A DNA stretch of 64,000 nt from Thiohalophilus thiocyanatoxydans. GTDB lineage: Bacteria > Pseudomonadota > Gammaproteobacteria > UBA6429 > Thiohalophilaceae. A model generated the notes under the pieces. That model saw nothing but the letters and a program-made list of their open reading frames with translations. It was not told the origin of the DNA and made no database searches. Shown piece by piece: positions 28,747-53,179 of the stretch (its first letter is position 1; every line of letters begins with the position of its first letter). The stretch spans positions 186,001 through 250,000 of the forward strand of contig NZ_SOQX01000001.1 of the NCBI RefSeq assembly GCF_004366735.1. The letters run 5' to 3'. A program made the translations under genes and the position numbers.

Positions 28747-28768
28747 TTTATGCCCGTTGTTTGGGTGC
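28747..28768 (+). repeat. TTTATGCCC...GGGTGC cassette inside a CGCAGAG repeat
   Basis: Within a stretch of the interspersed CGCAGAGG-type repeat, the expected run GCAGAGGC-GCAGAGG is split by TTTATGCCC, seven bases and GGGTGC. The same cassette recurs at 35277, 36182, 37433, 51619, 51960, 52069, 52179 and 52907. Confidence 0.6.
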
Positions 28769-28816
28769 AGAGGACGCGGAGAAAACGTTTATTTTATCTC
28801 GTTGTGAAATCGATTG

Positions 28817-29077
28817 TTATGCAGCTGATTCGTGGTCAACATCCCAGCCAGGGAATACCAGTACAGCAGGATGGCAGTTCAGTGCTCTCGCCAGTACCTT
28901 GGCTCTTTCAACGCCGAGCTGAACACGATCATTTTCAATCGCTGAGATCGTTGACTGCGGAATCCCGCTCAATTCCGCCAGCTCATTCTGGCTGAGATCC
29001 TGCCATTCACGCATGATTTTGACAGACTCGCCCACAGAAACATCGATGTGCTTTTTGGCTTTGGAATATCCCTTCAT
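28817..29077 (-). CDS. XRE-family antitoxin
   Basis: 86 residues. The core VGESVKIMREWQDLSQNELAELSG with STISAIENDRVQLGVERAKVLARAL is a lambda-repressor-like helix-turn-helix; the C-terminus HPAVLVFPGWDVD is a short tail that may hold the toxin. It begins two bases after the toxin stop (toxin first, antitoxin second, the HigBA order). The pair should repress its own promoter through the palindrome at 29358. Confidence 0.88.
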   Translation of the reverse strand: MKGYSKAKKHIDVSVGESVKIMREWQDLSQNELAELSGIPQSTISAIENDRVQLGVERAKVLARALNCHPAVLVFPGWDVDHESAA

Positions 29078-29078
29078 G

Positions 29079-29360
29079 CTATTTCCTCCGATAATCGTGA
29101 GGCGTCACGCTGACAACTTCGACGAGAATCCTCTCTTTCTCAATCCTGTATATCACCCTGAATTGTTGATTTAACCGGGATGACCTGTAACCTTTCCACT
29201 CGCCGCTTAACGACTCATCGTGCAAGCCCTTGATTTTCCGTAGGCCCTGGGGGCCGGACAGGGTCACAACATCTTTCCATTTCTCGTAGCGTTTCAGGAC
29301 GTCAGTTGGTATTGAACCGAGCTGCCTGGAAACGCGCCGATGTTCATATATGGCCCACAT
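29079..29360 (-). CDS. RelE/ParE-superfamily toxin (HigB/YafQ-like)
   Basis: 93 residues. The fold signature is there: RVSRQLGSIPTDVLKRYEKW (helices), GLRKIKGLHDESLSG-WKGYRSSRLNQQFRVIYRIE (strands) and a basic end TPHDYRRK. Toxins of this shape cut ribosome-bound mRNA. The start codon lies inside a long palindrome, which fits autorepression. The partner antitoxin is immediately downstream. Confidence 0.88.
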   Translation of the reverse strand: MWAIYEHRRVSRQLGSIPTDVLKRYEKWKDVVTLSGPQGLRKIKGLHDESLSGEWKGYRSSRLNQQFRVIYRIEKERILVEVVSVTPHDYRRK

Positions 29361-29393
29361 ACCATAATTAGTATATATACCAATTATGGTATG
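29358..29393. promoter_or_regulatory. 36-base near-perfect palindrome, TA operator
   Basis: CATACCATAATT on the left and AATTATGGTATG on the right are exact inverted arms, and the twelve central bases are also symmetric with a single mismatch pair. It covers the toxin start codon. The very low GC contrasts with the surroundings and fits binding of an XRE antitoxin dimer pair. Confidence 0.75.
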
Positions 29394-29533
29394 TCAATAT
29401 ATTTAACGCATCAGGTCATAACCAGCCCAGCGTATTTCTGCGTCACCTGAGTTGAGTTGTCTTACAGGACTTATAATGCCAGCTTGGCAAAAGGCAAAGC
29501 CGGATAATCATATACCGCCGCCTTCATCAGGCG

Positions 29534-30199
29534 TTATCGTCGGCGTCTTGAAAACCGCTCCAGCAGGATAACAAGCAGCGATACACCGCCGAGCAGCAAC
29601 AGCGTTATACCAATGCGTTCGCTCTCGCCCGAGGCCATCTCGGCGCCAAAGTGGGCGAGCAGGAAGCTGGCGGGAATGATGCCCGCGAAGGTCGCAACCA
29701 CAAAGCGCCAGAAGCGCAACGGCGTCACGCCCGCGGCGTAGCTCACCATATCGAAGGAAATAAACGGCAGCAGGCGGGAAACGAACACGATCAACATCAG
29801 CATGTTTTGCGAGCCGTGCAAGCGTTGCATGATGCCCGGTCCCAGCCAGTGTTGCACGACCGCCAGACCCGCCAGGCGGGCGATAATAAAGGCGATAATG
29901 GCGCCCAGTTCCGCGCCGATGAGCACATACACCGTGCCCTCTGTGTGACCATAGGCCGCCCCCGCGGCCAGCGCGATAGGCGCACTGGGGATCGGGCTCA
30001 TGACGATAGCCAGCGTCATCAGGCCGATGATGGCAAGCGGACCGATAATGCCCAACTGTTGCAGCCACGCCTGCAGCGCGGGACCATTTTCCAGAAAAGC
30101 GATGGCGCCGCTGCGCGCGAGTATCAGATAGCCCCCGATTAACGCGATGACAATAGCGCCGAGAAGCAACAGCCGCGCAACCACTGGCGAGAGCTTCAT
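29534..30199 (-). CDS. TVP38/TMEM64 (VTT-domain) membrane protein
   Basis: 221 residues with five to six hydrophobic segments. The VTT/DedA-like motif reads PIPSAPIALAAGAAYG near the first third, then GAELGAIIAFIIARLAG and FVSRLLPFISFDMVSYAAGV, which is typical for TVP38/TMEM64 proteins. Members act in membrane lipid or selenite/osmotic responses; the substrate is unsettled. The ATG overlaps the stop of a truncated upstream frame (ATGA at 30196-30199), a trace of former translational coupling. Confidence 0.9.
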   Translation of the reverse strand: MKLSPVVARLLLLGAIVIALIGGYLILARSGAIAFLENGPALQAWLQQLGIIGPLAIIGLMTLAIVMSPIPSAPIALAAGAAYGHTEGTVYVLIGAELGAIIAFIIARLAGLAVVQHWLGPGIMQRLHGSQNMLMLIVFVSRLLPFISFDMVSYAAGVTPLRFWRFVVATFAGIIPASFLLAHFGAEMASGESERIGITLLLLGGVSLLVILLERFSRRRR

Positions 30200-30327
30200 T
30201 GTCGAAAATCCTGATCAATCCCCGCCTGGATCTTGCACGACTCCGCTGGCCAACGAATTTTGATGAATGTCTGCACTGCCTCTATGTCGTCGTTTTTCAA
30301 CGTATCGCCCCGGGCGGTTAATTCGAC
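30196..30327 (-). pseudogene. 3' remnant of a gene upstream of the VTT protein
   Basis: The frame that ends at 30196 encodes 43 residues such as LTARGDTLKNDDIEAVQTF then IKIRWPAES, which resembles the last helix of small c-type cytochromes (aspartate-rich, then xxFIKxRWP). No start codon or haem motif is present; the frame is closed by a stop just upstream where the DUF2726 gene ends. The overlap ATGA with the VTT gene implies the complete gene once stood here. Confidence 0.5.
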
Positions 30328-30341
30328 AAGGTGTCTGGGCT

Positions 30342-30839
30342 TTACCCTGACCCTGAACTTCCTGGATTTAATACTAATTCAATATGATCACGAACATTTT
30401 GTATTTGGTAATTAGACTTTGCCTGAAATCGAATAAGGCTTAACGATGCACTTTTGCATGCATTTTCGAGCAATGAGTCCCTGTCGTTTGCTTTCTTTGT
30501 ATTGTGGCTCTTATCATCTAACTCAATCACAGCAATCACCTCTAATTTGTCCTTTGAGCACAAAACGTAATCAAAGTGTTTTGCGGAAATTCTATTAAAT
30601 GCAATTTGCCAGTTTTTACGACTCATGCCTTTAGCTGGAGTAATAATATCGGCAACTCTTACTTTGCCAAATACACGATATTTATCAGATATGGCCTGAT
30701 CCAGAACACCCAGAAATGAGCGCTCGGCAGGAGTGAATAACATCCTGCGTTGACGATAATTGTAATCTTTCCCTGAAGGAGATTTTAAAAAAACCGAAAC
30801 AATGACAACCAATACTAATAAAACAATTACCCATTCCAT
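30342..30839 (-). CDS. DUF2726 membrane-anchored protein
   Basis: 165 residues from the ATG at 30839; a longer frame to 30878 has no ribosome site. An N-terminal helix (EWVIVLLVLVVIVSVFL) anchors a domain with LFTPAERSFLGVLDQAI, VFGKVRVADII and FDYVLCSKDKLEVIAVIELDD, the DUF2726 pattern, an endonuclease-like fold with a conserved ELDD element and a basic stretch after it. Its codon use is AT-richer than the core genes. Such proteins are usually found on accessory islands; function unknown. Its 3' end abuts the truncated frame, consistent with insertion. Confidence 0.82.
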   Translation of the reverse strand: MEWVIVLLVLVVIVSVFLKSPSGKDYNYRQRRMLFTPAERSFLGVLDQAISDKYRVFGKVRVADIITPAKGMSRKNWQIAFNRISAKHFDYVLCSKDKLEVIAVIELDDKSHNTKKANDRDSLLENACKSASLSLIRFQAKSNYQIQNVRDHIELVLNPGSSGSG

Positions 30840-30966
30840 GTTATTTTCTCGCTTAACGGCGCCAATAAGGAGCCCCAAAAGGCACCGGAAGGATTAAATT
30901 TTATCCAACCCCATTAAAAAATAAATCTGCCCACTTTTCCTGCAAAACGGGCTTTCGTTTTTCTTG

Positions 30967-31254
30967 TTAAAAATTCTTCTCGTTTTCTTTGTTGTGCCAG
31001 ATTCTTAATATATAGATGGTTTCATCCGCGATAAGGTAACGGGCCGTATACCTGCCGATATAAAGATCACGGATTAGCTCCGGGTCGGGGGCCTTCAAGA
31101 CAGGTAAGCCGATTTTTGGAAACCGCTTCAGCCTGTCGACACCCTCCTGGAGATCGAGCGCGATTCGCCGGGCCGCAAACGGGTTTTCAGCCTCAACAAA
31201 GTCCACCACTCGCCGCAGGTCAGCGATAGCCTCCGGCGAGTACCTGACCTTCAT
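30967..31254 (-). CDS. ParE/RelE-family toxin
   Basis: 95 residues. VRYSPEAIADLRRVVDFVEAENPFAARRIA, RFPKIGLPV, RDLYIGRYTARYLI and IYILRIWHNKEN are the ordered motifs of ParE-like toxins, which block gyrase or act on ribosomal mRNA. Its ATG overlaps the upstream antitoxin stop by four bases (ATGA at 31251-31254). Antitoxin-first order and overlap are typical of ParDE. Confidence 0.88.
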   Translation of the reverse strand: MKVRYSPEAIADLRRVVDFVEAENPFAARRIALDLQEGVDRLKRFPKIGLPVLKAPDPELIRDLYIGRYTARYLIADETIYILRIWHNKENEKNF

Positions 31255-31517
31255 GATTCCGGTGGCGATTTACCCTGATTCGTCCCCCAGCTGTTCAGCC
31301 AGGCATTCACATCCTCCTCGGCGATGGAGTGACCCGCCTTGATGGACTCCAGCGCCTCAAGGGTCTCCTGCCACCGGGAATCCTCCAGGGACTGCCGCGC
31401 CAGAAACTCCTTAATCGCCTGATTTATGAGGTAATTCTTGCTCCTGTCCAGCCTTTTGGAAAGCGCCTCCAGGGGCTTTTCCACCTCATCGGCGATCCGA
31501 ATACTCGTAATACCCAT
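31251..31517 (-). CDS. Ribbon-helix-helix antitoxin (CopG/ParD type)
   Basis: 88 residues from the ATG at 31517. The N-terminal TSIRIADEVEKPLEALSKRLDRSKNYLINQAIKEFL is a ribbon-helix-helix DNA-binding domain; the acidic C-terminal part (SIAEEDVNAWLNSW) is the usual toxin-binding arm. A frame extending to 31586 would overlap the operator palindrome, so the short start is preferred. Confidence 0.87.
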   Translation of the reverse strand: MGITSIRIADEVEKPLEALSKRLDRSKNYLINQAIKEFLARQSLEDSRWQETLEALESIKAGHSIAEEDVNAWLNSWGTNQGKSPPES

Positions 31518-31538
31518 GCCACATACCTCAGCGTAGTG

Positions 31539-31553
31539 ATATGTATTACATAT
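31539..31553. promoter_or_regulatory. 7+1+7 palindrome upstream of the ParD-like gene
   Basis: ATATGTA-T-TACATAT is a perfect inverted repeat 22 bases before the antitoxin ATG, in an AT-rich tract. It is a likely operator for the ribbon-helix-helix antitoxin. Confidence 0.6.
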
Positions 31554-31682
31554 TAGTACAACCGGGACATGCCAGCCAGGCTGCATGTCAGAACATCAAG
31601 GGGGTCGATAAGGGCTTTGCCCCCTCGGCATGACTAACTGCTACGCTTGAAAAGCGATACCACACCGCTCAGAGGTCTTATC

Positions 31683-32180
31683 ATGAAACAAATTACCGCA
31701 ACCCTCGCATTACTGGCCCTGTTATTGCCGGCCATTGTGCATGCCGATGCAAACAAGCCGGATGATGCCCGCGCCCTGCAGGGCGTTGAAACCGGGCGAA
31801 TCCTCTGGGACGTGACGCTGGGCGATCCCGCCGCGCTGGCCGGCCGCCTCGACGTGATCCGGGAAACCTATGACGACATGCTGCGCCAGGGTGTCAAACC
31901 CGAGATGGTGTTCGGTTTTCGCGGCGGTGCCGCACGCCTGATCGCCCGCAGCAGCTGGCACGGCGAGCTGGACCAGGTCAGCGAGATCACGGCCGTCCAC
32001 GATCGGTTGAAGAGCCTGCTGGAACTGGGCGGTATACACATGGAAGCCTGTAGCATCGCAACCCGGCGCATCGATCTGGGTGCCGACGACCTGCTACCGG
32101 GGATCGAACTGGTTGGCAACACCTTCCTCTCCATCATGGGTTACCAGCAACAAGGCTATGCGACCATCCGCATTGACTAG
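31683..32180 (+). CDS. Secreted DsrE-superfamily protein
   Basis: 165 residues from the ATG at 31683 with AGAGG upstream. A signal peptide (LALLALLLPAIVHA) leads to a DsrE/DsrF-like domain: ILWDVTLGDPAALAGRLDVI, VFGFRGGAARLI, then LGGIHMEACSIATRRIDL with a single conserved Cys, and LPGIELVGNTFLSIMGYQQQGYATI. This periplasmic subgroup is common in sulfur oxidisers; the Cys could carry sulfur, but function is unproven. It is a single gene on the plus strand next to minus-strand toxin-antitoxin genes. Confidence 0.8.
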   Translation: MKQITATLALLALLLPAIVHADANKPDDARALQGVETGRILWDVTLGDPAALAGRLDVIRETYDDMLRQGVKPEMVFGFRGGAARLIARSSWHGELDQVSEITAVHDRLKSLLELGGIHMEACSIATRRIDLGADDLLPGIELVGNTFLSIMGYQQQGYATIRID

Positions 32181-32354
32181 ATATTCATTGCACGGGCAGC
32201 CGGATTAACAGAAAGATAAAGAGATCAACGCAGAGGCGCAAAGACGCAGAGGAACGCAGAGAAAGAATTAATTTTGTGTTGTTGTGGAATGAGTTTTACT
32301 TTGATTGCAAATGAGAATCGTTTGTCACCGACCCCATTTACTTCCATTTACTGA
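32181..32354. repeat. Repeat-derived stretch with CGCAGAG motifs
   Basis: Between the DsrE-like gene and the small sigma-domain gene lies the interspersed ACGCAGAGGCGCAAAGACGC-type repeat at 32228-32262, also seen near 28735 and 61294. A CACCGACCCCATTTAC segment near 32327 resembles the ends of short mobile repeats. No gene seen. Confidence 0.5.
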
Positions 32355-32510
32355 TCAATCACGAACCTCAATCCCCATGTGACGGATCATTTCAAAAATC
32401 AGTTCTAACCCCTCCGGGCTGTCTGCTTCATTCGGCAGCATTTCCATGATTTCACTCTTGAGTAAATATCCCTGTTCCCGGCCTTTCTCAATTATTTCTT
32501 TCGCAATCAA
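32355..32510 (-). CDS. Miniature sigma-70 region 1.1 protein
   Basis: 51 residues on the minus strand from a TTG at 32508-32510 with GGAAGGGG six bases upstream, to TGA at 32355-32357. The sequence IEKGREQGYLLKSEIMEMLP, then ADSPEGLELIFEMIRHMG-IEV, is that of region 1.1 of primary sigma factors (RpoD), the acidic three-helix module that blocks the DNA channel of RNA polymerase. Here it stands alone, without regions 1.2-4. An in-frame stop nine codons upstream of the start excludes a longer version. It could modulate polymerase or be a remnant of a mobile element. Confidence 0.6.
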   Translation of the reverse strand: MIAKEIIEKGREQGYLLKSEIMEMLPNEADSPEGLELIFEMIRHMGIEVRD

Positions 32511-32714
32511 TATCAGCCCCTTCCAAAACTAAGTTCAGGCATAGCATTTCATACTATTGGATATAACTGTGCTTTTACAGCCATTTTCTGTTTTCATAAC
32601 AAACAATCAGCACAGGCCTCGTCAATGCAAGGCCCGAAAGTCAAAGCGCAAGACCTGACCCTTTCTTTCGGGAAAAGCTTTAAAGGTAAGTCTAGAAGAA
32701 GGAGGCAACCAAAA
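32511..32714. other. Gap upstream of PEP-CTERM terminator
   Basis: About 200 AT-rich bases. A segment near 32651-32690 (GACCTGACCC and GGGAAAAGC) looks like repeat ends seen again near 33945. No coding potential recognised. Confidence 0.35.
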
Positions 32715-32745
32715 ACGCCCGCCAGTGGGTTCTCCTGACGGGCGT
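32715..32745 (-). terminator. Terminator of the second PEP-CTERM gene
   Basis: ACGCCCGCCAG and CTGACGGGCGT form an 11 bp stem with one mismatch and a nine-base loop. On the minus strand it is followed by five T residues. It lies 22 bases past the stop codon at 32768. Confidence 0.82.
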
Positions 32746-32767
32746 CCTCCCTCAAGCCAGGCGCGAT

Positions 32768-33631
32768 TCAGGCGGCCTGCGGCCTTTTGCGCCGCCGGGT
32801 TGCCCCCAGCCCCGCCAGACCCAGGCCCATCAGGACGAGGGAGCCGGGCTCAGGGATGGGGGAGGGTGAGGGGGATGTTGTCGTGCCACCCAAACTGGCG
32901 ATATAGGTGGTGGTATCCAAAATACTATCGGAGGTATCGGCCACAATAAAGGACAGGCTGTGGGTGAGTGAAGTATCCAGCCCCGTGCCGGAGAAGGTCA
33001 GGCGAGGATCTCCGCCAGGGGCGAGAATGCCGTCAAGTTCGGTGCCGGCCAGAAAGGCCATGTCGGGATGGTTAATGTTGACCGGGCTGCCACCAACGGA
33101 GGCGATGTTGGTGCCGTTCAAAAACAGGCCGAAGCCGTCGATGAAAGTGCTGCCGACGTATTCGTCGAATTCCTCGGAACCGAACACGACGTCGAAAAAC
33201 ACCTCGCCGGTGCTGCTGGTAAAGTCAATGTCGAGCTGGGTGACGTCGAAGTGGCTAAATCCACCCCCCGTGATGGGATCGAGCAAGGCTTCCTGTGCGC
33301 CGGTAGCGGGCGTACCAAAATCTGTTGTGTTGCCGGTAGCAGTATTGGATCCGTCGCTGTAATCGGAGACATCGCCGGAGCTTAATACGATTCCGGGACC
33401 GATTCCGTAGGTGCCGCTGGTGTTGGTGTAAGTTCCGCTGGAGACGGCGCCGCCCGAGCTGTTTCCGCTCAAGGTAGAGCTCACGACAGTCAGGCCGGTG
33501 GACCCTTCGGTCAGGCTCGTGGTGAGGCTAGCGCCAACGGCGTCCGGCGAGACCAGGATGGCCTGTGCCGGTGTTACCCCCCCTCCCCCAAAGGCGGCAG
33601 CCAGTAAAACAGTTGTTAAGCGAGTTTTCAT
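32768..33631 (-). CDS. PEP-CTERM protein with choice-of-anchor L domain
   Basis: 287 residues. A signal peptide (TTVLLAAAFGGGGVTPAQA) is followed by a Ser/Thr/Gly-rich domain, then FFDVVFGSEEFDEYVG and DGFGLFLNGTNIA, the hallmark of choice-of-anchor L surface domains. The tail SPIPEPGSLVLMGLGLAG, then LGATRRRKR, is a canonical PEP-CTERM signal for exosortase processing. The gene is isolated, has its own terminator and a sigma-54-like element upstream, like the other PEP-CTERM gene in the window. Confidence 0.93.
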   Translation of the reverse strand: MKTRLTTVLLAAAFGGGGVTPAQAILVSPDAVGASLTTSLTEGSTGLTVVSSTLSGNSSGGAVSSGTYTNTSGTYGIGPGIVLSSGDVSDYSDGSNTATGNTTDFGTPATGAQEALLDPITGGGFSHFDVTQLDIDFTSSTGEVFFDVVFGSEEFDEYVGSTFIDGFGLFLNGTNIASVGGSPVNINHPDMAFLAGTELDGILAPGGDPRLTFSGTGLDTSLTHSLSFIVADTSDSILDTTTYIASLGGTTTSPSPSPIPEPGSLVLMGLGLAGLGATRRRKRPQAA

Positions 33632-34009
33632 GACAAATCTCCTGATTTGAGTCGTGTTTAACCAAGGTCAAAGGAGACCGATCAATTTGATTGATTGGTC
33701 TGAAAGTCATTACGCAAAAACCGAACCAATATTTTTAAGCTATTGATCTAAAAATAGATTGGTAAATCGCTCAGAATCGGGTGTAAAAAATTCTGACAAT
33801 TGAGCAGCGATGTGGCGGCAGGTAAGTATAGGAAATATAAACGATACTTAGGGTCAAACAATATTTGGAGTCAGAGTGAGGTTCCCCGATAAAACGGGTT
33901 CGATAAGGGCTATGACGTTCCCCCAATAAAACGGACCATCACGGGGTCAGGTCTTGCCTTTTTCTTCCTTAAAGTCAGGGCCTGAACCTGATTTAGTTTC
34001 TGCCTAACA
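33632..34009. other. Control region and repeat ends between two minus-strand genes
   Basis: 378 bases. The first hundred hold an inverted motif (TCAATTTGATTGA near 33682) and the sigma-54-like element at 33713. Around 33890-33965 there are GGTTCCCCGATAAAACGGG and ATCACGGGGTCAGGTC, which look like ends of short mobile repeats. No gene seen. Confidence 0.4.
33713..33728 (-). promoter_or_regulatory. Sigma-54-like promoter of the choice-of-anchor gene
   Basis: Read on the minus strand: TGGTTCGGTTTTTGCG, 9 of 12 consensus positions, with an exact TTGC block and the ten-base GG-GC gap. Expected start near 33701, 70 bases before the ATG. Confidence 0.45.
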
Positions 34010-34534
34010 TCAAGAATCAGTCGCACTATCTTCTTTCGTCGGCTGAGACGCTTTGTTAGAACTTTCTCCAATTTTCGCTAACAAAAGCAATGCGTCATTA
34101 ATTTCTTTCTCCGACGTAAAAAATGCAGCCACATGCCTTTCACTTTTACTGAACCCTTGTTTTAACATCTGCGCATAAATTAATGATTTCAGATCATCTG
34201 GGACAAATAATTTTACAGAGTTCTCCATGCATTCAAGTTCATAGCATGCTTTTAGCTCAGATATTTTTATGCTTTTGGCCGAATCTAAGGATTCTTTTTT
34301 ATGGGCATCTATTTCAGCCTTGACTTTCCTTTCATAGGTATCTTCTATTGCCTTTATTTCATTCGCAGTTTTTTCCCAGCTGCGATGTTTATCTAATAAA
34401 TCAGTTACTGTATTTAGGACGCTAGCGAGCTTATCAATCCTGTTATCAATATTTCTTCTCCGAAAATAACTCCAGACCAAAAAAATCATGACTGTCACAT
34501 TTGTGATGAGTGTAATAAATTCAGCAGTACTCAT
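34010..34534 (-). CDS. Membrane-anchored coiled-coil protein, unknown
   Basis: 174 residues from the ATG at 34534, which has AGAGGAAGTC directly before it; a GTG at 34552 is also in frame. An N-terminal helix (FITLITNVTVMIFLVWSYF) is followed by a Lys/Glu-rich coiled coil of about 80 residues (RWIDNRIDKL to HKKESLDSAK type) and a globular end. No family recognised. The gene is AT-rich relative to the genome core, which suggests horizontal gain. Confidence 0.6.
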   Translation of the reverse strand: MSTAEFITLITNVTVMIFLVWSYFRRRNIDNRIDKLASVLNTVTDLLDKHRSWEKTANEIKAIEDTYERKVKAEIDAHKKESLDSAKSIKISELKACYELECMENSVKLFVPDDLKSLIYAQMLKQGFSKSERHVAAFFTSEKEINDALLLLAKIGESSNKASQPTKEDSATDS

Positions 34535-35332
34535 GACTTCCTCTGAAAGCACTAACAGTGATTCGAGCAGAACCTGTATTTTCAGGAATCAGGTAAATTC
34601 TGCCTCTTACGGCAAAAGACAAAAATTACTCTTAACCGTAGCAAGGATTTTCTGCATTTTCATCCTGATAACTTTGTTTTTTGTTTAAACATCAAGGCAA
34701 ACTCCGGCTCCTGCCAGTCGGTTTTGATCCCGTTAGACGCCGCCGAGCATCGCAGTGGAAGGAGGAATAGCCCGAAGGGTGGCGGCAGGGATGCCGCCAC
34801 TCGACAGTCGGCACAGGGACGTGCCGTCTGGCGAGCCCGACTGGAGCGAGAAGCGCAAGGAACCGGTTCAGCCATTGGAAATGGCTGAACCGGCGGCGTC
34901 TTCGGGCGCGTTTCCTTTGGTTCGTTTCGTTGTCGCGTTACAACGAAATGAACCCGAGGCGCGCTGGCGGGTCAGCGCTTTCAAAATTCAGGGCGCCCGG
35001 AGGGCGATCATTCAGGAAGTAGGTTTGGATCACCCCACCCTAACCCTCCCCTTGGAGGGGAGGGAATAAAGTCTGAGGCATGGGAGCCCACTTTCAAGAT
35101 CAAGGGCGCCCGGAGGGCGGTCATTTAGGAAGTAGGTTTGGATCACCCCACCCTAACCCTCCCCTTGAAGGGGAGGGAATAAAGTCTGAGGCATGGGAGC
35201 CCACTTTCAAGATCAAGGGTGCCCGGAGGGCGATCATTTAGATAGAAGCTGGATGCTTGATCACCCCTCCCTAACCTTTATGCCCTCCAGGGTGCTCCCC
35301 TTGAAGGGGAGGGGATTAAAGGTTGATAAACC
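34535..35332. repeat. Repeat-rich gap including a 113-base tandem repeat
   Basis: 798 bases without a real gene. From 34991 three copies of a 113-base unit begin at 34991, 35104 and 35217; each holds GGGCGCCCGGAGGGCG, CCCCACCCTAACCCTCCCC and a GGGGAGGG hairpin half. The third copy differs near its end and carries the TTTATGCCC cassette at 35277. An open frame at 34755-35069 is a translation of this repeat, not a gene. Confidence 0.75.
35277..35295 (+). repeat. TTTATGCCC...GGGTGC cassette in the 113-base repeat
   Basis: Copies one and two read CCTAACC-CTCCCC; copy three has TTTATGCCCTCCAGGGTG exactly between these two parts. This is the clearest empty-site versus filled-site pair in the window. 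Confidence 0.75.
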
Positions 35333-35797: not shown

Positions 35798-35865
35798 GGC
35801 GTTGGGCTCTGGATATCGAGATGGGTCATCATACCGTAATGGCTTACCATGCTGAGCGGATTGTT

Positions 35866-35899: not shown

Positions 35900-35929
35900 C
35901 TACGACAGACCTCGAATCAAAGTAAAAGC

Positions 35930-36117: not shown

Positions 36118-36445
36118 AGAACGAGGAACGACCGACGAAGTGATTTTGCCTTGGCTCAATTTATACCACCCCTCCCTGACCTTTATGCCCTCCAGGGTGC
36201 TCCCCTTGAAGGGGAGGGAATGATCTCGCTAATCGCGAAGTAAGTTCCCCCTCCCATAGGGAGGGGGTTAGGGGGAGGGGATATAATCCGGCCCCAGCAC
36301 AACCGATTCTTTACTCGTCACTCGGCCCTCGTACCTCGTCGCTGGCCCAAAACAGACGCAGCGCTGAAAAAGTCCCCGACCCGCCATGAGTTACGCTCTT
36401 TGCCTGACTTGTACCAGCGACGTAATACGGGTATCTTGCCTCGCC
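36118..36445. repeat. Repeat patch before pyrD
   Basis: Contains a relative of the third 113-base-repeat unit with its own TTTATGCCC cassette (36182-36200), CCCTCCC/GGGAGGG inverted stretches at 36246-36280, and a CTCGTACCTCGT seven-base repeat patch at about 36314-36343. No gene. Confidence 0.6.
36182..36200 (+). repeat. TTTATGCCC...GGGTGC cassette, second copy in this repeat family
   Basis: Identical to the copy at 35277-35295 (TTTATGCCCTCCAGGGTGC), again between CCTGACC/CCTAACC and TCCCCTTGAAGG. Confidence 0.75.
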
Positions 36446-37408
36446 ATGAACCACGACGAGCTTGAGCTGCTGCGCACCGATTTTTGCGGGATGGATTTCC
36501 AGACGCCGCTGGTGCTGCTGTCGGGCTGCGTCGGCTTTGGCGAGGAGTACACCCGGGTGGTCGGCTACTCGAACCGGGATGTGGGGGCGGTCTGCCTGAA
36601 GGGCACGACCCTTGAGCCGCGCCTGGGCAATCCGCCGCACCGGATTTTCGAGACGCCGATGGGCATGCTCAATGCCATCGGGCTGCAGAACCCCGGTTCG
36701 CGCCAGGTGGTCGACACCATTCTGCCCGAGCTCGATTTTGCCGAGACCCGGTTTATCGCCAACCTCTCCGGCTCGACCCTGGAAGAGTATGTCGAGGTGG
36801 CGCGGATCTTCGATGACTCGCCCATCGACGCGATGGAGATCAACATCTCCTGCCCGAATGTGAAAGAGGGCGGGGTCACTTTCGGCAACGATCCAGAGAT
36901 GTCGGCGCGGGTGGTGGCCGCCTGCCGCGCGGTGACCGACAAGCCGCTGATCACCAAGCTCTCGCCCAACCAGACCGACATTGCCGACAATGCCCGGCGC
37001 TGTATCGAGGCGGGGACCGACGGCTTTGCGGTAATCAATACGCTGATGGGCATGGCTGTCGATATCGAATCGCGCAGCCCCGTTATCGGCAACAACCAGG
37101 GCGGGCTCTCCGGGCCGGCGATCAAGCCGATCGCGCTGCTCAAGGTGCACCAGGTCTACCAGGTCGCCCGCGAGCACGGGATTCCGATCATCGGCCAGGG
37201 CGGGGTCAATTCGGCGGAAGATGCCATCGAGTTTCTGATCGCCGGCGCCTCGGCGGTAGGGGTGGGGACCGCGCTGTTCTATGACCCGCTGATTTGCGCG
37301 AAAATCAACGCCGGTATCGTGGCATATATGAATCGCCACGGGCTGGCCAACGTGGCGCAGATCACGGGGAGTCTGCGGCTGAATGATGCCGGCGGTTCCT
37401 GCAGTTGA
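36446..37408 (+). CDS. pyrD: Dihydroorotate dehydrogenase, class 1 (1B-like)
   Basis: 320 residues from the ATG at 36446; earlier in-frame ATGs add residues that no family member has. FCGMDFQTPLVLLSGCVGFG is the usual start of class 1 enzymes; MEINISCPN holds the active-site Cys, and IIGQGGVNSAEDAIEFL and GASAVGVGTALF bind FMN phosphate. The Cys base and absence of an N-terminal membrane extension indicate class 1, normally cytosolic and linked to NAD through PyrK in class 1B; no pyrK is seen in the window. It oxidises dihydroorotate in pyrimidine synthesis. Confidence 0.88.
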   Translation: MNHDELELLRTDFCGMDFQTPLVLLSGCVGFGEEYTRVVGYSNRDVGAVCLKGTTLEPRLGNPPHRIFETPMGMLNAIGLQNPGSRQVVDTILPELDFAETRFIANLSGSTLEEYVEVARIFDDSPIDAMEINISCPNVKEGGVTFGNDPEMSARVVAACRAVTDKPLITKLSPNQTDIADNARRCIEAGTDGFAVINTLMGMAVDIESRSPVIGNNQGGLSGPAIKPIALLKVHQVYQVAREHGIPIIGQGGVNSAEDAIEFLIAGASAVGVGTALFYDPLICAKINAGIVAYMNRHGLANVAQITGSLRLNDAGGSCS

Positions 37409-37432
37409 GACTGAGCGCCGGACACCGCGGAG

Positions 37433-37450
37433 TTTATGCCCGGCGGGTGC
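37433..37450 (+). repeat. TTTATGCCC...GGGTGC cassette inside a type A REP
   Basis: Just after pyrD a type A REP (GCCGGACA ... TGTCCGGC, 37416-37460) carries the cassette in its loop: CCGCGGAG, then TTTATGCCCGGCGGGTGC. Confidence 0.75.
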
Positions 37451-37651
37451 ACTGTCCGGCCTGCCGGTGAACCGGCATCGCCCGGGCAATGCGGCGCAGT
37501 TGACCGGCGCCTGCGGCTGAACGATAGTAACGGCGCCTGCTGTTAAAAGCGGCAATCCACCGTAAAAGCGATAAAGCTGCCTTGTTGGCGGCCGATAACG
37601 ATAACAACGCTCGGGCGACAGCCTGACCCATAACCAATCGATATATCCATT

Positions 37652-46281: not shown

Positions 46282-46340
46282 TCATGTCGTAAATCATCGC
46301 ACCACTGGCGCTCCTGCAGCGCTGAATCCCTCCGCGTGCT

Positions 46341-46367
46341 GTAGGAGCGGCTCCGCCGCGACCGGAA
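46341..46367 (+). repeat. REP element of the GTAGGAGCGGC type
   Basis: GTAG followed by GAGCGGCTCCGCCGCGACC, a well-known REP layout in gammaproteobacteria, located in the upstream part of the mshP frame. Confidence 0.6.
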
Positions 46368-46849
46368 TGTCCGTGACAGAGAATCTGCCGTGTCCCGAAC
46401 ACTTGTTGTGGACCTCGTCCCTCGTCCCTCGTCCCTCGTCCCTGCCCGCAGGGCGGGTGCGCCAGGGCGGCTTCAGCCTCCCGCTGGCGATCTTCATCAT
46501 CGTCGTGATGGCCCTGATCGGGACCGCCATGGTCAGCCTCACCCAGAGCGGCCAGCGCTCGGTGGCCAGCGAGGTGCAGTCGATCCGCACCTTCTACGCC
46601 GCCGAAACCGGCGCCCAGACCGCCGTCGCCCAGGTCGTGCCGCTGGGTGGCGGCAACCCCGGCTGCACCGCCGTCAGCAACAGCATGAATTTCTCGCCGG
46701 CCGAGCTGAGCGGGTGCACGGCCACCCTTGATTGCGAGACATTGACTCTGGCGGGCGACACCTATTACCGGATCACCAGCGACGCTGAGTGCAGTTTCGC
46801 TGACAACGACACCCGGCGGCAGGTGGAGGTCATGGTGAGGCTGCCGTGA
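46367..46849 (+). CDS. mshP: MSHA pilus protein MshP
   Basis: 160 residues from the ATG at 46367. A GTG at 46457 after GGGCGG would instead give the short leader MRQGG and is the more natural prepilin start. The signal then reads FSLPLAIFIIVVMALIGTAM (MshP-like, lacking the +5 Glu), and SVASEVQSIRTFYAAETGA follows. A GTAG-type REP (46341-46363) and four CTCGTCC repeats (46411-46443) lie in the upstream stretch, so the real start has probably moved. The end CSFADNDTRRQVEVMV is like MshP. Confidence 0.75.
   Translation: MSVTENLPCPEHLLWTSSLVPRPSSLPAGRVRQGGFSLPLAIFIIVVMALIGTAMVSLTQSGQRSVASEVQSIRTFYAAETGAQTAVAQVVPLGGGNPGCTAVSNSMNFSPAELSGCTATLDCETLTLAGDTYYRITSDAECSFADNDTRRQVEVMVRLP
46411..46446 (-). 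repeat. Four copies of a seven-base repeat (CTCGTCC) in mshP leader region
   Basis: CTCGTCC is repeated four times in tandem, the reverse complement of the GGACGAG tract at 44941-44966 in mshD and of intergenic tracts at 56549, 56720 and 61390. Confidence 0.8.
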
Positions 46850-47130
46850 ACAACCCCCCTTGCGATAACCTGTCGGGACCCGGCCTCGCAGGCCCCGGTT
46901 CCCTGGTTCGGCGTTTAAACCCCGCGCCGGCAACTAAACTCTGCCGCGCCACCGCCGATAAGCTAAAATGGCGGCATAGTGACGCTATCCCGACGCCCGT
47001 ATCCTGTGTTTTATAAAAACGAAGCATTCAACACCATGCAGCCTTCTACAGCTGATCGCGATTCCATCTGCCCGCCGCGGCGCGCGACGCCGGCGCTGGA
47101 GCACGTCGCTCCAGGGCGAGTCGCCCGGTA
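46850..47130. other. Gap between mshP and mshQ
   Basis: 281 bases. A 31-codon frame (47036-47131) opens with ATGCAGCCT and ends with TAATG, so it would couple to mshQ; its composition (Arg/Pro-rich) gives no function. No hairpin recognised with confidence. Confidence 0.4.
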
Positions 47131-50100
47131 ATGGCCGGGGCAATGGCACAATATCCCGACGCGAGGGCGCCATTCGGGTTGGCGGGCCGGGAATCGCGCC
47201 TGGCGGACACCCTCGCCAGCCTGCGCCGGGGCTGGCGCAAAACCGCCCGGATCGCCGGGGCGCTGCTGGTGGGCGCCCTGCTGCTTGCACCGGCGCCATC
47301 CGCCAACGCCTACCCGGCCGACCAGTGCGCCGCCGACCGCTTTGGCTCCGACCTGAACTGTACCGCCAACGATGTCGCCATCACCAATATGCAGGTCATC
47401 GGCGACATGACCTGGTGCGAGGGCGGCACGGATATCGTGGTCGACCTCGAGGTCACGGTCAACTTTGCTTCACCAGACCGTAACGACATCGGCGTCTTTA
47501 TCTCCAACGACGGCAACGATCCGCAGACTACCGAGGCCAATGGCGGTGCCGCAAGCTGCTCGGTCAGCGAGCTGCCGACAGAGAGCCCCTTTCTGGATCT
47601 GGACGGCGATAGCTGCGGCGACGGCAACCAGAGCATCAGCGGCGGGACCGGTTCCGGCACGTTCTACATGACCGACGTCACGGTACCCTGTCAGGCGATG
47701 CCCGGCTCCGGTAACGACCTTTATGTCCCCTTCGTCGTCAGCTGGGACCAGGACAAACAGGGCCAAAATGTTTGCAGCGACGAACGCGATCCGGTGCCCC
47801 GCACAAAATCCAAGTGCAACGCGCCGGACATCGCCCAGGGCACCATTCAGGTCGGGGTGATGCCGAGCATCAGCAAGAGCGACGACATCGAGTATATCAA
47901 GTCCGGCGACTCCACCACTTACGACGTGACCATTACCAACGACACCGGTGACGAGCTTGGCGGCGCCGAATTCAGCGACCCGGCCGTAAGCGACATGAGC
48001 GTGGACAGCCTCAACTGCACGGCAAGCGGCGGCGCCACCTGTCCCACCGGGTATACGATCGCCGATATGCAGGGCGACGGGATCACGCTGCCGGACATGC
48101 CGGACGGCGGGAGTCTGACATTCGAAATCGAAGCGACCCTGACCGGCGATCCCAACGACACCATTACCAATACCGGCTACGTCACCATGGGCAGCCACAC
48201 CAATTCGGCGAGCGACACCAACACCATTGTCGATGAGATCGGCATTTCGCCCACCTCTCAGAACAAAGAAGGCGCGGCCGGCAATACCGTCACCTACGAG
48301 TATACCGTCAACAATTTTACCCCCTGGGAGGATGACATCAGTCTCTCGGCGGTATCCAGCGAGGGCTGGAATGTCTTGTTATCCGACGCCACGCTCACGG
48401 TGGACTCGGAGGGTTCGGCCGACTTCACCCTGGAGGTGGAGATTCCCGCCGGGGCAAGCATCGATGACTTCGATACCACCACGATTACCGCCACCTCGGG
48501 CGATGACCCGACCATGACGGCAAGCGCCACAGCCAAGACAACGGTTGCCGAGCTTCTGACACTGGTTCCCGACAATACCGCTGCCGGCGGACCCGGACAG
48601 ACCTTCTCCTACGAGCATACCCTGCAGAACAATTTCAGCTCGTCGCAAACCATCTCGTTATCAACCGCTATGACGGGTGACTGTACCGACTGGCAGGCGA
48701 CCATTTATGAGGCTGATGGCGAGACGGTGATCAGTTCGGTTGATCTGGACGGCAACGGTGACAACACGGATATTGTCGTCGAGGTGACAGCTCCGAATTC
48801 GGCGGCGATCGGGGACAGCTGCGTTGTCACCACAACCGGCACCACCAGCGGTGTTTCCGCCTCGGCGAAGGACACCACGACGATCAAGGAGCTGGGCCTC
48901 TTCTGGGATCCCGACTACGAGGAGGAGAGCTACATCTATCCGGCGGGCAATAATGTCTATGGCAAGGCCTTCGGCCTCACTGACGGCGAGGATTATTACT
49001 TCGAGTGGTATGATCCCGCGGGTGATCTGGTTCGCACTTCTTCGACAACGACTGTCCTCGGTACCGTTTTGCCCGACACCTACAAACTCCCCGACGACGC
49101 GACGCTGGGGACCTGGAATGTGAAGGTATGGCACGATACGACCCCTGACCGTGAACTTCACCAGGAAACCGACTTTTATGTGGGCCCCGATCACATTGAG
49201 GCCAGCCATTCGGGCGATACGGAAACCACCGACACCAATGTAGAAGTCGATCTGGCGCTCCATGACCGCTTTAATCACGCGATCCCGGAGGATTCCAATG
49301 GCGATCTGATTACCGCCAATCCGCCGACCACGGCCAATCCACTGCTGGTCACTGTCACGGTCGACGGTTCGGCGAGTATTGTCTCCACCTCGCTGGGCAA
49401 TGCCACCATTTCGGGACAAAAGGTGACCGGGCTTCTGGACGATACGGACGGCACCGCCACGATGACCATCACCAACAGTGTCGCCGAAACCGTCAACGTT
49501 ACGCCCGAATCCCACGAACCCGCGTTGTACGGCTCGCCCCTGCGAGACGAGTCCGCCGCCATCGATTTCAAGCGACCGCCGCTTGACCACTTTCGCCTGG
49601 AATACAACGGGCAGGGCCTGACCTGCCAACCCAAATCGATTACCGTCAAGGCCTGCATTGACACTAACTGCAACAATCTCTATGCCTACGATGTCAGCGT
49701 TTCCCTGTCACCAGGCGGCTGGGTCGGTGGCGACAACAAGGTCCTCAGCGGCGGTTCCGAGGAGTTTGAACTGCGCAAGACGACCACGGGGACGGTAACC
49801 CTGGATATTGACAGCTCGTCCCCCAGTCCCAACAACACACCGGTCTGCGTCAACACGGCCACCGACAACGAGAGCTGTGATCTGACCTTCCATGACAGCG
49901 GTTTTCTGGTCGACGTGCCGACCCAGACCTCGTGTCAGACCTCCGGCGATCTCACTCTGAGCGCGGTTCGCACCGATGACGTGACTCAAAAATGTGTCCC
50001 GGCCTTTGCCAGTACGACAAAGAACCTGAAAATCTGGGCCGAATACTCGGATCCGGCCAGCGGGACTCAAAGCGTCGAGCTGAGCCACGCCGGGAATGAC

Positions 50101-51543
50101 TACTCCCTGCCCGACACGGAGCCGGGCGCCACCAACATCCCGATCGAGTTCAACGCCGATGCCGAGGCGACCTACAACCTGACCTATCCCGACGCCGGCC
50201 GGCTGGTGCTCAAGACCCAATACGAAGGCAGTGGCGACGATGCCGGCCTCACCATGCTGGGCGACAGCACCTATGTCACCAAGCCGGCCAAGCTGTATGT
50301 CCATAGTGACGACACCGACGCCGACTGTGCCAGCGGCGACGCCACTTGCTCGCGGCTGACCGCCGCCGGCGACAGCTTCAATATGAAGGTACGTGGCGCC
50401 TGTGCCGACAACAGCCTGACACCCAATTTCCGGCTGGATAACATCGATCTGACCCAGAATCTCGTGGCCCCCGCCGGTGGGGAGAGCGGTTCCATTAATG
50501 TCACCAACTTCAATATCGCCGACGAGGACAATGGCGAGCATCTGATCAACAACCAGACTGTCTCCGAAGTCGGTGTCTTCACCTTTACCGCCAGTCTCGG
50601 TAGTGGTGTGGATTATTTTGGTGAGACCAGTATCGGCAATACCACGCTCAACACCAGCGACAACATCGGCCGTTTCAGCCCGCATCACTTTGTGGTCAAT
50701 GCGACCGAGGCCTGTAACGACAGCTTCACCTATTCGGGCCAGCCGTTTACGGTGACAGCCGAGGCACGCAACCAGGGCGACAACCCAACTCGCAACTACC
50801 GCGACGGCTTTGTGCGGGATCCGGTGATCTCCAATGCCGGCGATACCGACAACTTCAGCAACAACACACTGGGCAGCAGCGAGTTCACCACCAACGACGG
50901 CATTGGCGAGCGCACGGATATCACCTACACCTTCCCCGACAAGAAGACCGCCCCGCTCAACATCACCGAATTGCGCGCCACCGACAGCGACGGCATCACG
51001 TCCGACACCTATACGGAAGGTGAAATAAACATCCGCAGCGGCCGCATCGCCCTGGACAACGCCTACGGCTCGGAGCTGGTCGATCTGCGCGTGCCGATGG
51101 TTGCCCAGTACTATGACGGTGATGCGTTTGTACGCAACGAAGAGGATATCTGTGACAACGGCGTCACGATCAGTCTGCTCAACCCCACCGACACCCTGGA
51201 AGTCGGCGACGGTGAGACACGTGGCGAGACCTGTGTGCAGGATACCGACGATTCCGGGGACAGCGGCGCCGGCTGCGCCATCGCCGCGGATACGGATATT
51301 CAGTATACCGACGCACCACCCGATGCCGGCGAGTACACGCTCTATCTCAAGGCACCCGACGACGACAGCAGCTTCGATCCCGACGATCCGATTTACGGTA
51401 CCCTCACCGTCCGGGCCGATGCACCCGCCTATTTACAGTATGACTGGGACGATGATGCGACTGAAGAGGAGCCCGCCGCCACCATCAGCTTCGGCCGCTA
51501 TCGCGGCGACGACCGGGTTATCTACTGGCGCGAAAAATTCTAA
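47131..51543 (+). CDS. mshQ: MshQ-like giant secreted adhesin
   Basis: 1470 residues. After a 35-residue lead a signal segment (RIAGALLVGALLLAPAPSANA) exports a chain of Ig-like and DUF11-like beta domains, e.g. DDIEYIKSGDSTTYDVTITN near residue 250, then a NEW3-like stretch and the C-terminal MshQ/DUF6701 part from about 830: PLDHFRLEYNGQGLTCQPKS, IGRFSPHHFVVNAT, IRSGRIALDNAYGSELVDLR-VP and the end GRYRGDDRVIYWREKF. The chain is rich in Asp and Thr and has about 20 cysteines, likely calcium-stabilised and disulfide-bonded. As tip adhesin it would lie at the end of the MSHA pilus. Confidence 0.9.
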   Translation: MAGAMAQYPDARAPFGLAGRESRLADTLASLRRGWRKTARIAGALLVGALLLAPAPSANAYPADQCAADRFGSDLNCTANDVAITNMQVIGDMTWCEGGTDIVVDLEVTVNFASPDRNDIGVFISNDGNDPQTTEANGGAASCSVSELPTESPFLDLDGDSCGDGNQSISGGTGSGTFYMTDVTVPCQAMPGSGNDLYVPFVVSWDQDKQGQNVCSDERDPVPRTKSKCNAPDIAQGTIQVGVMPSISKSDDIEYIKSGDSTTYDVTITNDTGDELGGAEFSDPAVSDMSVDSLNCTASGGATCPTGYTIADMQGDGITLPDMPDGGSLTFEIEATLTGDPNDTITNTGYVTMGSHTNSASDTNTIVDEIGISPTSQNKEGAAGNTVTYEYTVNNFTPWEDDISLSAVSSEGWNVLLSDATLTVDSEGSADFTLEVEIPAGASIDDFDTTTITATSGDDPTMTASATAKTTVAELLTLVPDNTAAGGPGQTFSYEHTLQNNFSSSQTISLSTAMTGDCTDWQATIYEADGETVISSVDLDGNGDNTDIVVEVTAPNSAAIGDSCVVTTTGTTSGVSASAKDTTTIKELGLFWDPDYEEESYIYPAGNNVYGKAFGLTDGEDYYFEWYDPAGDLVRTSSTTTVLGTVLPDTYKLPDDATLGTWNVKVWHDTTPDRELHQETDFYVGPDHIEASHSGDTETTDTNVEVDLALHDRFNHAIPEDSNGDLITANPPTTANPLLVTVTVDGSASIVSTSLGNATISGQKVTGLLDDTDGTATMTITNSVAETVNVTPESHEPALYGSPLRDESAAIDFKRPPLDHFRLEYNGQGLTCQPKSITVKACIDTNCNNLYAYDVSVSLSPGGWVGGDNKVLSGGSEEFELRKTTTGTVTLDIDSSSPSPNNTPVCVNTATDNESCDLTFHDSGFLVDVPTQTSCQTSGDLTLSAVRTDDVTQKCVPAFASTTKNLKIWAEYSDPASGTQSVELSHAGNDYSLPDTEPGATNIPIEFNADAEATYNLTYPDAGRLVLKTQYEGSGDDAGLTMLGDSTYVTKPAKLYVHSDDTDADCASGDATCSRLTAAGDSFNMKVRGACADNSLTPNFRLDNIDLTQNLVAPAGGESGSINVTNFNIADEDNGEHLINNQTVSEVGVFTFTASLGSGVDYFGETSIGNTTLNTSDNIGRFSPHHFVVNATEACNDSFTYSGQPFTVTAEARNQGDNPTRNYRDGFVRDPVISNAGDTDNFSNNTLGSSEFTTNDGIGERTDITYTFPDKKTAPLNITELRATDSDGITSDTYTEGEINIRSGRIALDNAYGSELVDLRVPMVAQYYDGDAFVRNEEDICDNGVTISLLNPTDTLEVGDGETRGETCVQDTDDSGDSGAGCAIAADTDIQYTDAPPDAGEYTLYLKAPDDDSSFDPDDPIYGTLTVRADAPAYLQYDWDDDATEEEPAATISFGRYRGDDRVIYWREKF

Positions 51544-51602
51544 AACAAAAGACTCACCACCAAGACACGAAGACACCAAGAATAAAATTGACAACAACGG
51601 CT
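51544..51602. repeat. Short repeat ACCAAGACACGAAGACACC
   Basis: The AAGACACGAAGACACCAAG motif (51559-51585) recurs in inverted orientation at 53146-53174 and again near 57048-57075, so it borders the REP/transposase block. Confidence 0.7.
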
Positions 51603-52306
51603 GACGGACACCGCGAAGTTTATGCACGGAGGGTGCTATGTCCGGCCTACCCAAATCGTGACCAGACTGTAGGCCCGATATAGCGTTAGCGGCATCGGGC
51701 ATCCCGGAGGTTGCCGGACACCGCTCGCGCTCTGTCCGGCCTACCCAAAACGCAACCCGATGTAGGCCCGATAAAGCGCAGCGGTATCGGGCATATCCAG
51801 AAGCCGCCGGACACCGCTCGCGCTTTGTCCGGCCTACCCGAAACGCAACCCGACGTAGGCCCGATAAAGCGCAGCGGTATCGGGCATTCCGAAGGCCGCC
51901 GGACACCGCTGCCGCTCTGTCCGGCCTACCCAAAACGCAACCCGCGTAGGCCCGATAAAGCACCCTTCGGGCATAAACTCCGCGGTATCGGGCATATCCG
52001 GAAGCCGCCGGACACCGCTCGCGCTTTGTCCGGCCTACCCGAAACGCAACCCGCGTAGGCCCGATATAGCACCCTTCGGGTATAAACTCCGCGGTATCGG
52101 GCATATCCAGAAGCCGCCGGACACCGCTCGCGCTCTGTCCGGCCTACCCAAAACGCAACCCGACGTAGGCCCGATAAAGCACCCTTCGGGCATAAACTCC
52201 GCGGTATCGGGCATATCCGGAAGCCGCCGGACACCGCTCGCGCTTTGTCCGGCCTACCCGAAACGCAACTCGATGTAGGCCCGATAAAGCGCAGCGGCAT
52301 CGGGCT
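51603..52306. repeat. REP array: alternating type A and type B elements
   Basis: Seven units of about 92-112 bases. Each has a type A REP (GCCGGACA ... TGTCCGGC followed by CTAC) and, about 15 bases on, a type B REP (GTAG then GCCCGATA ... TATCGGGC), with their GTAG ends facing each other. The first A element and three B elements have long loops that contain the TTTATGCCC cassette (51619, 51960, 52069, 52179); the others have a four-to-nine-base loop. Frames read through here are repeat translations only. Confidence 0.9.
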
Positions 52307-52312
52307 ATTCCC

Positions 52313-52816
52313 TTATTCGAGCTCTATTCCTGCAATATTTCGTGGTTCACTCTCGCCCCAACCGGGTGCATAGTATCCAAGCTCCAGGTATCTTTTATAT
52401 GAACTGAACGGCCAGGCATCGGGATCATTGACCAGACCGTGTTTTACCGGGTTGTAATGGATGTAATCCATATGGCGCCGCCAGTCTTCATCATCTCGAA
52501 TCACGTGTTCCCAGAACCTGGACTGCCATATTCTTCCAGACGCACCTTTCAGGTGTCGCGTCACATAGCCTTTGAGCATTTTCCACCGATTCGAGAAATC
52601 CGCATCTTCCTCAGGCATTCGCCAGATACAATGGATATGATCGGGCAATATCACGATCGCTTCGAGCTTGAAGGGGCGCCGGGCCATAACATGTCGAAAT
52701 CCGTTTCGTAAAACATCCACATTAGATGCTTCAGTAAATAATGGCTGGCGGCTCGCTGTGACCGCGGTGAAGAAGTAGACACCGCCGGGATAATAAAGGC
52801 GTCGATAATCGGACAT
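52313..52816 (-). CDS. REP-associated tyrosine transposase (Y1 family)
   Basis: 167 residues. The relaxase-type HUH site lies in LPDHIHCIWRMP (His60, His62), an acidic stretch follows, and YIHYNPVKHGLV carries the catalytic Tyr (Tyr118 or Tyr121). This matches RAYT/IS200-like Y1 transposases, which cut single-stranded REP hairpins at the GTAG tetranucleotide. It is a lone gene enclosed by two REP arrays and, further out, by an inverted short repeat. No frameshift is seen, so it may be active; it is not flanked by terminal repeats of an IS. Confidence 0.93.
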   Translation of the reverse strand: MSDYRRLYYPGGVYFFTAVTASRQPLFTEASNVDVLRNGFRHVMARRPFKLEAIVILPDHIHCIWRMPEEDADFSNRWKMLKGYVTRHLKGASGRIWQSRFWEHVIRDDEDWRRHMDYIHYNPVKHGLVNDPDAWPFSSYKRYLELGYYAPGWGESEPRNIAGIELE

Positions 52817-53179
52817 GGTTCCTCCCTGAACCTGGTCATTGTGGCCCTTTGCTGCAATTTACGGGATTTGTTTTATCATGACAAATTTTCGCCGGAAATC
52901 GCGCAGTTTATGCCCGAAGGGTGCTTTGTCCGGCCTACCCGAAACGTGACCAGACCGTAGGCCCGATAAAGCGATAGCGGTATCGGGCATTCCGAAGGCT
53001 GCCGGACACCGCTAACGCTATGTCCGGCCTACCCGAAACACAACCCGGCGTAGGCCCGATAAAGCGCAGCGGTACCGGGCATCCCGGAGGCTGCCGGACA
53101 CCGCTCGCGCTATGTCCGGCCTACCCGGATATATAACAAATCTTTTCTTCGTGTCTTGGTGTCTTCGTGGTTAGACTTT
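52817..53179. repeat. Second REP array and 5' flank of the transposase
   Basis: After the transposase start there is an AT-rich control segment (about 52817-52890). From about 52890 to 53127 run three type A and two type B REPs; the first A carries the TTTATGCCCGAAGGGTGC cassette (52907-52924). At 53146-53174 the CTTCGTGTCTTGGTGTCTTC motif is the inverted partner of the one at 51559. Confidence 0.85.

Follow-up and report, generated by a model that had tools for sequence, protein, structure and literature searches.

The question raised by a 64,000-nucleotide stretch of the Thiohalophilus thiocyanatoxydans genome (contig NZ_SOQX01000001.1, positions 186,001 to 250,000; hereafter, the window) is whether a very short cassette that recurs inside unrelated repeat families is a mobile element in its own right. 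The window corresponds to C1:186001-250000 of the source genome, G000 (2.9 Mb). The cassette has the consensus TTTAT-RCCC-N(3-11)-GGGT-R (R = G or A) and is placed immediately 5' of a C. It measures 17 to 25 nt, with 17 to 21 nt in G000 and up to 25 nt in other genomes, and its middle comprises 3, 4, 5, 7, or 11 nt. This unit is gained or lost exactly, directly before C and duplication-free, in many unrelated intergenic repeats. That it inserts as a whole has good support; how it does so is inferred.

Definition and borders of the cassette

With the pattern TTTATGCCCN{3,7}GGGTGC, seven exact matches were found in the window (28747+, 35277+, 36182+, 37433+, 51960-, 52179-, and 52907+), as opposed to a mean of 0.00 in 100 shuffles. 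Two variants deviate by one mismatch, 51619 (TTTATGCAC...) and 52069 (TTTATACCC, minus strand). The nine window copies counted by an earlier sequence-only reading are thus obtained when one mismatch is allowed, seven of them being exact. The whole-genome search suggested at that time yielded 61 exact copies over 15 contigs of G000, with 0 for the reversed-pattern control, and a relaxed search (R at position 6, GGGT at the end) yielded 78 matches with controls at zero. The proposed short cassette with fixed ends stands; its size of 18 to 22 bases and its right border, GGGT before GC, had to be corrected to 17 to 21 nt in G000 and to GGGT-R before C.

For the borders, filled copies were collected across many genomes, 187 distinct ones in total. 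Herein, the unit was excised at all border-shift combinations, and the joined 8+8 flanks were sought elsewhere in the fetched DNA, which comprises the stretches fetched at the copies (loci with L-numbers). Shift (0,0) restored known flanks for 43 copies, and shift (-1,+1), which amounts to the same border if a G flanks the unit as well, for 34 copies; all remaining shifts restored 0 to 3. Since only these shifts restore the flanks, the insert is 17 to 25 nt long, has C as its right neighbor, and creates no target-site duplication. The latter is also apparent from the unambiguous border between AACC and CTCCCC in the 113-base repeat. In this repeat, TTTATGCCCTCCAGGGTG lies between CCTAACC and CTCCCC, exactly as first read; two copies in the array are empty, and so is the copy of the sister species G001 (G001:C3:177958) that is syntenic with the window site 35277. 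Empty sites were read directly for the CCTCCC, CCTCTCC, GTAGGAGCGCTG, and GGGGGCCGCACCC hosts. In the CRCAGAG hairpin of L067, one arm is filled (GAGGCG followed by CCAAGACG), and the opposite arm is empty at the matching place; the hairpin of L143, from a Spongiibacteraceae genome, likewise has one filled and one empty arm. At L393 and L395, filled and empty copies lie together on one contig. What distinguishes filled from empty sites is exactly the cassette, as expected if the sequence-only reading was right, and orthologous filled/empty pairs exist. Such borders call for the whole unit to have been inserted or precisely excised.

The left flanking base is G in 103, C in 35, T in 21, and A in 12 of 171 contexts. 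To the right, C alone is constant, but the pattern demanded C; a search without this demand gave RC in 70/73 G000 copies. The commonest right-flank dinucleotides are CA (73/171) and CT (64/171). Seen on the other strand, about 80% of the contexts place the unit 3' of WG.

Within the genus, comparison was made with one other genome, G001, which shows mostly 80-91% identity over syntenic DNA and contains 29 exact copies. The two genomes have at least six filled loci in common. All 20 further filled G000 loci that were mapped to G001 lack the unit there, a count that is not a rate since loci already known as shared were excluded. At many of the 20, the host repeat is altered or missing in G001. 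Exact empty sites with the host repeat present are found in the pairs L010/L426, L015/L428, and L022/L432, of which L015/L428 involves two cassettes, the second giving the cleanest empty site. For window copy 28747, the syntenic G001 stretch has the CRCAGAG repeat without the cassette; for copy 37433, the whole host repeat is missing at the orthologue. An 80 kb syntenic G001 stretch has zero copies, though part of it reads N.

Host repeats, inner structure, and distribution

The hosts include loops of repetitive extragenic palindromes (REPs) as well as the CRCAGAG, CCTCCC, CCTCTCC, CAATGAC, and GTAGGAGCG families, and number more than 10 across genomes. The 73 distinct fetched copies of G000 divide into CRCAGAG (38), REP (21), CCTCCC (5), CAATGAC (5), and unplaced (4), two of the last resembling degenerate CRCAGAG. 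Hence, at least 69 of the 73 lie inside four repeat families, which answers the earlier concern that copies might occur outside repeats. In G000, the middle follows the host family: it is GNN in 21/21 REP copies, 7 nt long in 37/38 CRCAGAG copies, TNNA or TCA in 5/5 CCTCCC copies, and CGCAG or CACAG in 4/5 CAATGAC copies. One middle can also cross families: TCCA (L123) occurs in CCTCCC and CRCAGAG hosts of one genome, and the 11-nt middle GGCGCTTAATC (G062) and GCTTTNT (G064) are each found in two host families.

Empty REP loops read CGC-NNNN(N)-CT, whereas filled ones read CGC-GGAG-unit-CT, so that the 4-base length is retained and the GGAG flank differs. REP cassettes are always preceded by GGAG, GAAG, AGAG, or GGCG, and empty REPs have other loops of 4 to 5 bases. 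Because of this differing flank, the REP copies probably trace back to one or a few founding events and multiplied along with the REP, rather than to 21 separate insertions. Relative to the GTAG end, they are found in either orientation. CRCAGAG cassettes sit at differing array units, and in L015 two neighboring units of a single array are occupied. The piece CGCGGAG-cassette-CT is also seen in palindromes of differing stems (GGCGGATTA, GGTGGCTC), namely at L042, L046 (G031), and L093 (G001), and this recurrence hints at whole-loop exchange between REP families. In Geobacter, the host repeat is longer and surrounds GGCGTAG..CTACGCC (L281-L283, L289-L291, L297, L299, L305-L307); in it, all cassettes seen end in GGGTA or GGGTG before CTACGCC; its translation can lengthen neighboring reading frames (RRRSTQTSGINSATPHNFACEIG-like).

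The inner sequence was surveyed in 50 copies for which only the CRCAGAG flank and TTTAT were demanded, and nearly all still read RCCC...GGGT. Stem sites are less variable than loop sites (12/400 versus 25/350, Fisher p 0.011, a value that is only a guide as the copies are related). On the TTTAT strand, 195/200 stem pairs are kept, 44 of which are G-T wobbles that become C-A mismatches on the opposite strand. The variable middle length of 3 to 11 nt suits a loop and not a duplex site of fixed spacing. Exact-length tandem arrays occur in four genomes (G232 with five units, G402 with three, G001 and G066 with two each). At L387 (G232:C26:128118-129136), five identical 18-bp cassettes stand head to tail. 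Rfam gave 0 matches in window positions 28000-53500.

Across genomes, the distribution is patchy. Of 58 relatives, seven carry at least one exact match, and G001 alone has many. A set of 364 well-assembled gammaproteobacterial genomes includes about a dozen with clear enrichment (examples with 69, 38, 28, 25, 21, 17, 16, 15, and 13 copies; controls 0-1), and most have zero. When GTDB genomes were screened for cassettes with a 7-nt middle, three Geobacter-type genomes also proved enriched, with 20 copies in Geobacter sp. AOG1, 21 in Geobacter H2geo, and 7 in Geomobilimonas luticola; uncultured Ectothiorhodospiraceae and a Spongiibacteraceae genome were found as well. The middles are lineage-specific (GTTGTTT, GATGTTT, GTTCTTT, GTTTTTT, TAG, TCT, TTCA, etc.; G062 has an additional 11-nt class), and the ends are constant. 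That Gammaproteobacteria and Geobacter-type bacteria have identical ends suggests either a single conserved machinery or horizontal transmission. Matches on viral contigs mostly look like chance, and viral carriage was set aside. A GCATTCCCACGC/CGCTGGAGCGTC repeat common to two viral contigs, L172 (6686-6853) and L209 (6741-6908), contains two cassettes with the middle CAGA in inverted orientation, spaced by about 130 bp.

Candidate modes of spread

The reading favored here, and considered probable, is that the unit is a discrete non-autonomous mobile stem-loop that is moved in trans and was later also copied with its host repeats. A putative trans-acting enzyme would bind single-stranded DNA, recognizing the TTTA lead and the short stem (TRCCC/GGGTR), and would join the unit before C by an HUH/IS200-like chemistry, that is, single-strand and duplication-free. 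Most targets are palindromic, and single strands may be exposed in the stem-loops of such repeats. Once inserted, the unit also spreads along with the host repeat, as is clear for REPs, and at times forms tandem arrays. HUH-type single-strand transposition is ranked first because joining is duplication-free and the stem-loop has a free loop length. Co-spread clearly contributes, since middle and host family go together in G000, and movement of the unit by itself is argued from the cross-family middles of L123, G062, and G064 together with the orthologous filled/empty pairs. In this way, the entry of a cassette into unrelated repeats that the sequence-only reading had proposed is supported by the repeat-flank and filled/empty border tests.

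Several points weigh against this reading. Given the correlation of middle and host in G000, many copies may have spread with their host, and the direction of the filled/empty differences (gain versus precise loss) is not polarized by an outgroup. The stem is weak as DNA (-1.2 to -2.3 kcal/mol) and mostly unremarkable compared with shuffles; owing to this low folding energy, the stem-loop is suggestive only, and a stable hairpin as the sole explanation was rejected. A link to the replication strand was not seen against sampled GC skew: the apparent one-orientation run of Geobacter sp. AOG1 does not track the skew, and G001 is mixed. Pfam Y1_Tnp had 0 matches in the Geobacter sp. AOG1 genome with its 20 cassettes, and of the 16 Y1 loci found in six further genomes with cassettes, not one has a cassette closer than about 1.5 kb. 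Clustering of the open reading frames beside cassettes gave only common housekeeping types (ABC ATPases and similar), for which reason a linked mobilizer gene was rejected, and neither an enzyme nor an autonomous partner was found in the Y1 and cassette-neighbor searches. The cassette as the ends of a longer transposon was likewise rejected, since a pattern with an 8-38 nt middle gave only the G062 11-nt class, chance-level matches, and pairs of neighboring repeats.

A less likely explanation, but the strongest of the rivals, is hitch-hiking: one entry per repeat family per lineage, with all copies arising by host-repeat spread, recombination, and loop exchange, and with no present mobility. 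This would account for the middle tracking the host family in G000, for the GGAG-like left flank that all REP copies have and empty REPs lack, and for the GGAG flank shared by the differing palindromes of L042, L046, and L093. It accords poorly with CRCAGAG copies at different array units (adjacent ones in L015), with one middle in different families within a single genome, with single host copies that are filled or empty at orthologous loci, and with more than 10 separate host families across lineages.

It is rather improbable that the cassette belongs to REPs as a cargo or loop module that the REP-associated tyrosine transposase (RAYT, TnpA_REP) mobilizes. The RAYT gene of the window, an obvious candidate mover in this genome, lies among five cassette-bearing REPs, and L042, a cassette-bearing locus of another genus, also encodes a RAYT. 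In addition, TnpA_REP cleaves beside hairpins; its site is CT, with CA as a second site in Marinomonas (PMC8266576), and CT and CA are the commonest right flanks of the cassette. However, most copies lie outside REPs, the junction is before C and not between C and T, the GTAG tag is missing, and the REP copies take both orientations relative to GTAG. One of the six Y1 loci of G000 bears the cassette, and the 16 Y1 loci mentioned above have none adjoining. Y1 genes are present in most cassette genomes tested, with Geobacter sp. AOG1 lacking a detectable one.

That the cassette is a functional word, a site for protein binding or for uptake, arisen repeatedly inside repeats is scarcely credible: the constant ends and a genome-wide enrichment in some lineages only would agree with it, but it was rejected by the border test, as exact filled/empty borders require whole-unit insertion and not mutation. 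The half-site spacing varies from 3 to 11 nt, and the ends are identical in two phyla with neighboring genera lacking the unit.

Relation to known systems and features of the window

Elements of the IS200/IS605 family have stem-loop ends and insert duplication-free, the flank providing the 5' base and the element its own 3' end. The cassette also inserts without target duplication, and on its YACCC...ATAAA strand the 5' base comes from the flanking G and the 3' end from the unit itself. Unlike these elements, it consists of a single stem-loop without transposase, and their conserved target flank of 4-5 nt has no counterpart beyond the constant right C. Guide/cleavage pairing of the IS200/IS605 type is described in PMC8266576.

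REPs and REPINs with their RAYTs resemble the cassette as short, non-coding, non-autonomous intergenic stem-loops in many copies. REPs measure 20-40 nt and the cassette 17-25 nt with a stem of 4-5 bp; it begins with TTTAT and ends with GGGTR in every lineage, no GTAG/CGTC tag is found at the foot of its stem, it usually lies inside other repeats, and one set of ends spans two phyla. It has no consistent RAYT neighbor, whereas REPs go with a cognate RAYT gene nearby or elsewhere in the genome. REPs nested in other palindromes are known from A. variabilis (GTAG-15), T. roseum (GTAG-23), and H. neapolitanus (CGTC-1) (PMC3733652, section 7). Miniature inverted-repeat transposable elements (MITEs) are also non-autonomous, dispersed, and short, but measure 70-300 bp (PMC3733652), whereas the arms of the cassette pair over 4-5 bases only and neither terminal inverted repeats nor a target duplication is present. 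Insertion sequences targeting REPs (ISPpu9, ISPsy8, and others) also land in intergenic palindromes (PMC1525189), but are full elements with transposase genes. The GC clusters of yeast mitochondria are mobile mini-hairpins with short flanking repeats, whose amplification route is disputed (PMC4478555). Clusters such as GC42 share with the cassette the tiny size, conserved stems, variable loops, and merging (PMC4478555); they differ in that the cassette creates no duplication and is hosted by bacterial repeats. None of the nested REPs, REP-targeting insertion sequences, or yeast GC clusters combines the ends, the size, and the duplication-free insertion of the cassette.

A literature text search, with most subscription journals outside its coverage, found no description of the sequence or of nested short inserts. 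The cassette is placed here among short mobile stem-loops and is possibly a class of its own. Tentatively, this class would be one of ultrashort transposable stem-loops that use palindromic repeats as nests, cross phyla, and depend on a putative trans enzyme unlike the REP and MITE systems. The cassette is among the shortest candidate mobile DNA elements known. If it moves by itself, the size floor of bacterial transposition would drop to about 17 nt, an enzyme recognizing a five-pair stem would be implied, and the invasion of intergenic palindromes, REP loop exchange, and single-stranded DNA as the substrate would become testable.

The features of the window are summarized in Table 1.

Table 1. 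Cassettes and associated features of the window (positions within the 64,000-nucleotide stretch)
Feature	Position	Strand	Remarks
Cassette TTTATGCCCGTTGTTTGGGTG, 7-nt middle	28747..28767	+	Exact match; in CRCAGAG repeat downstream of glycerol-3-phosphate dehydrogenase gene (gene end 28722)
113-base repeat, three tandem copies (two empty, one filled)	34984..35320	+	Coordinates read off the sequence
Cassette TTTATGCCCTCCAGGGTG	35277..35294	+	Exact match; third copy of 113-base tandem repeat, CCTCCC family
Cassette TTTATGCCCTCCAGGGTG	36182..36199	+	Exact match; second CCTCCC-family repeat
Cassette TTTATGCCCGGCGGGTG	37433..37449	+	Exact match; type A REP at 3' end of dihydroorotate-dehydrogenase-like gene
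Cassette variant TTTATGCACGGAGGGTG	51619..51635	+	One mismatch; type A REP
Cassette TTTATGCCCGAAGGGTG	51961..51977	-	Exact match; type B REP
Cassette variant TTTATACCCGAAGGGTG	52070..52086	-	One mismatch; type B REP
Cassette TTTATGCCCGAAGGGTG	52180..52196	-	Exact match; type B REP
RAYT-type gene, 167 aa	52313..52816	-	Y1_Tnp, Pfam E 7e-6; inside REP cluster; possible mover
Cassette TTTATGCCCGAAGGGTG	52907..52923	+	Exact match; type A REP upstream of RAYT gene

At the REP of 37403-37470, about 74 bp of the end of the dihydroorotate-dehydrogenase-like gene match on both sides, and insertion of this REP in G000 seems to have been accompanied by a partial duplication of the gene end. At 51556-53175, two CACCAAGACACGAAGACACC repeats in inverted orientation bracket the RAYT gene and its REP cluster. 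The corresponding two CACCAAGACACGAAGACACC arms of G001 flank about 150 bp of different DNA, as if the whole REP/RAYT module sat inside a CACCAAGACACGAAGACACC palindromic repeat.
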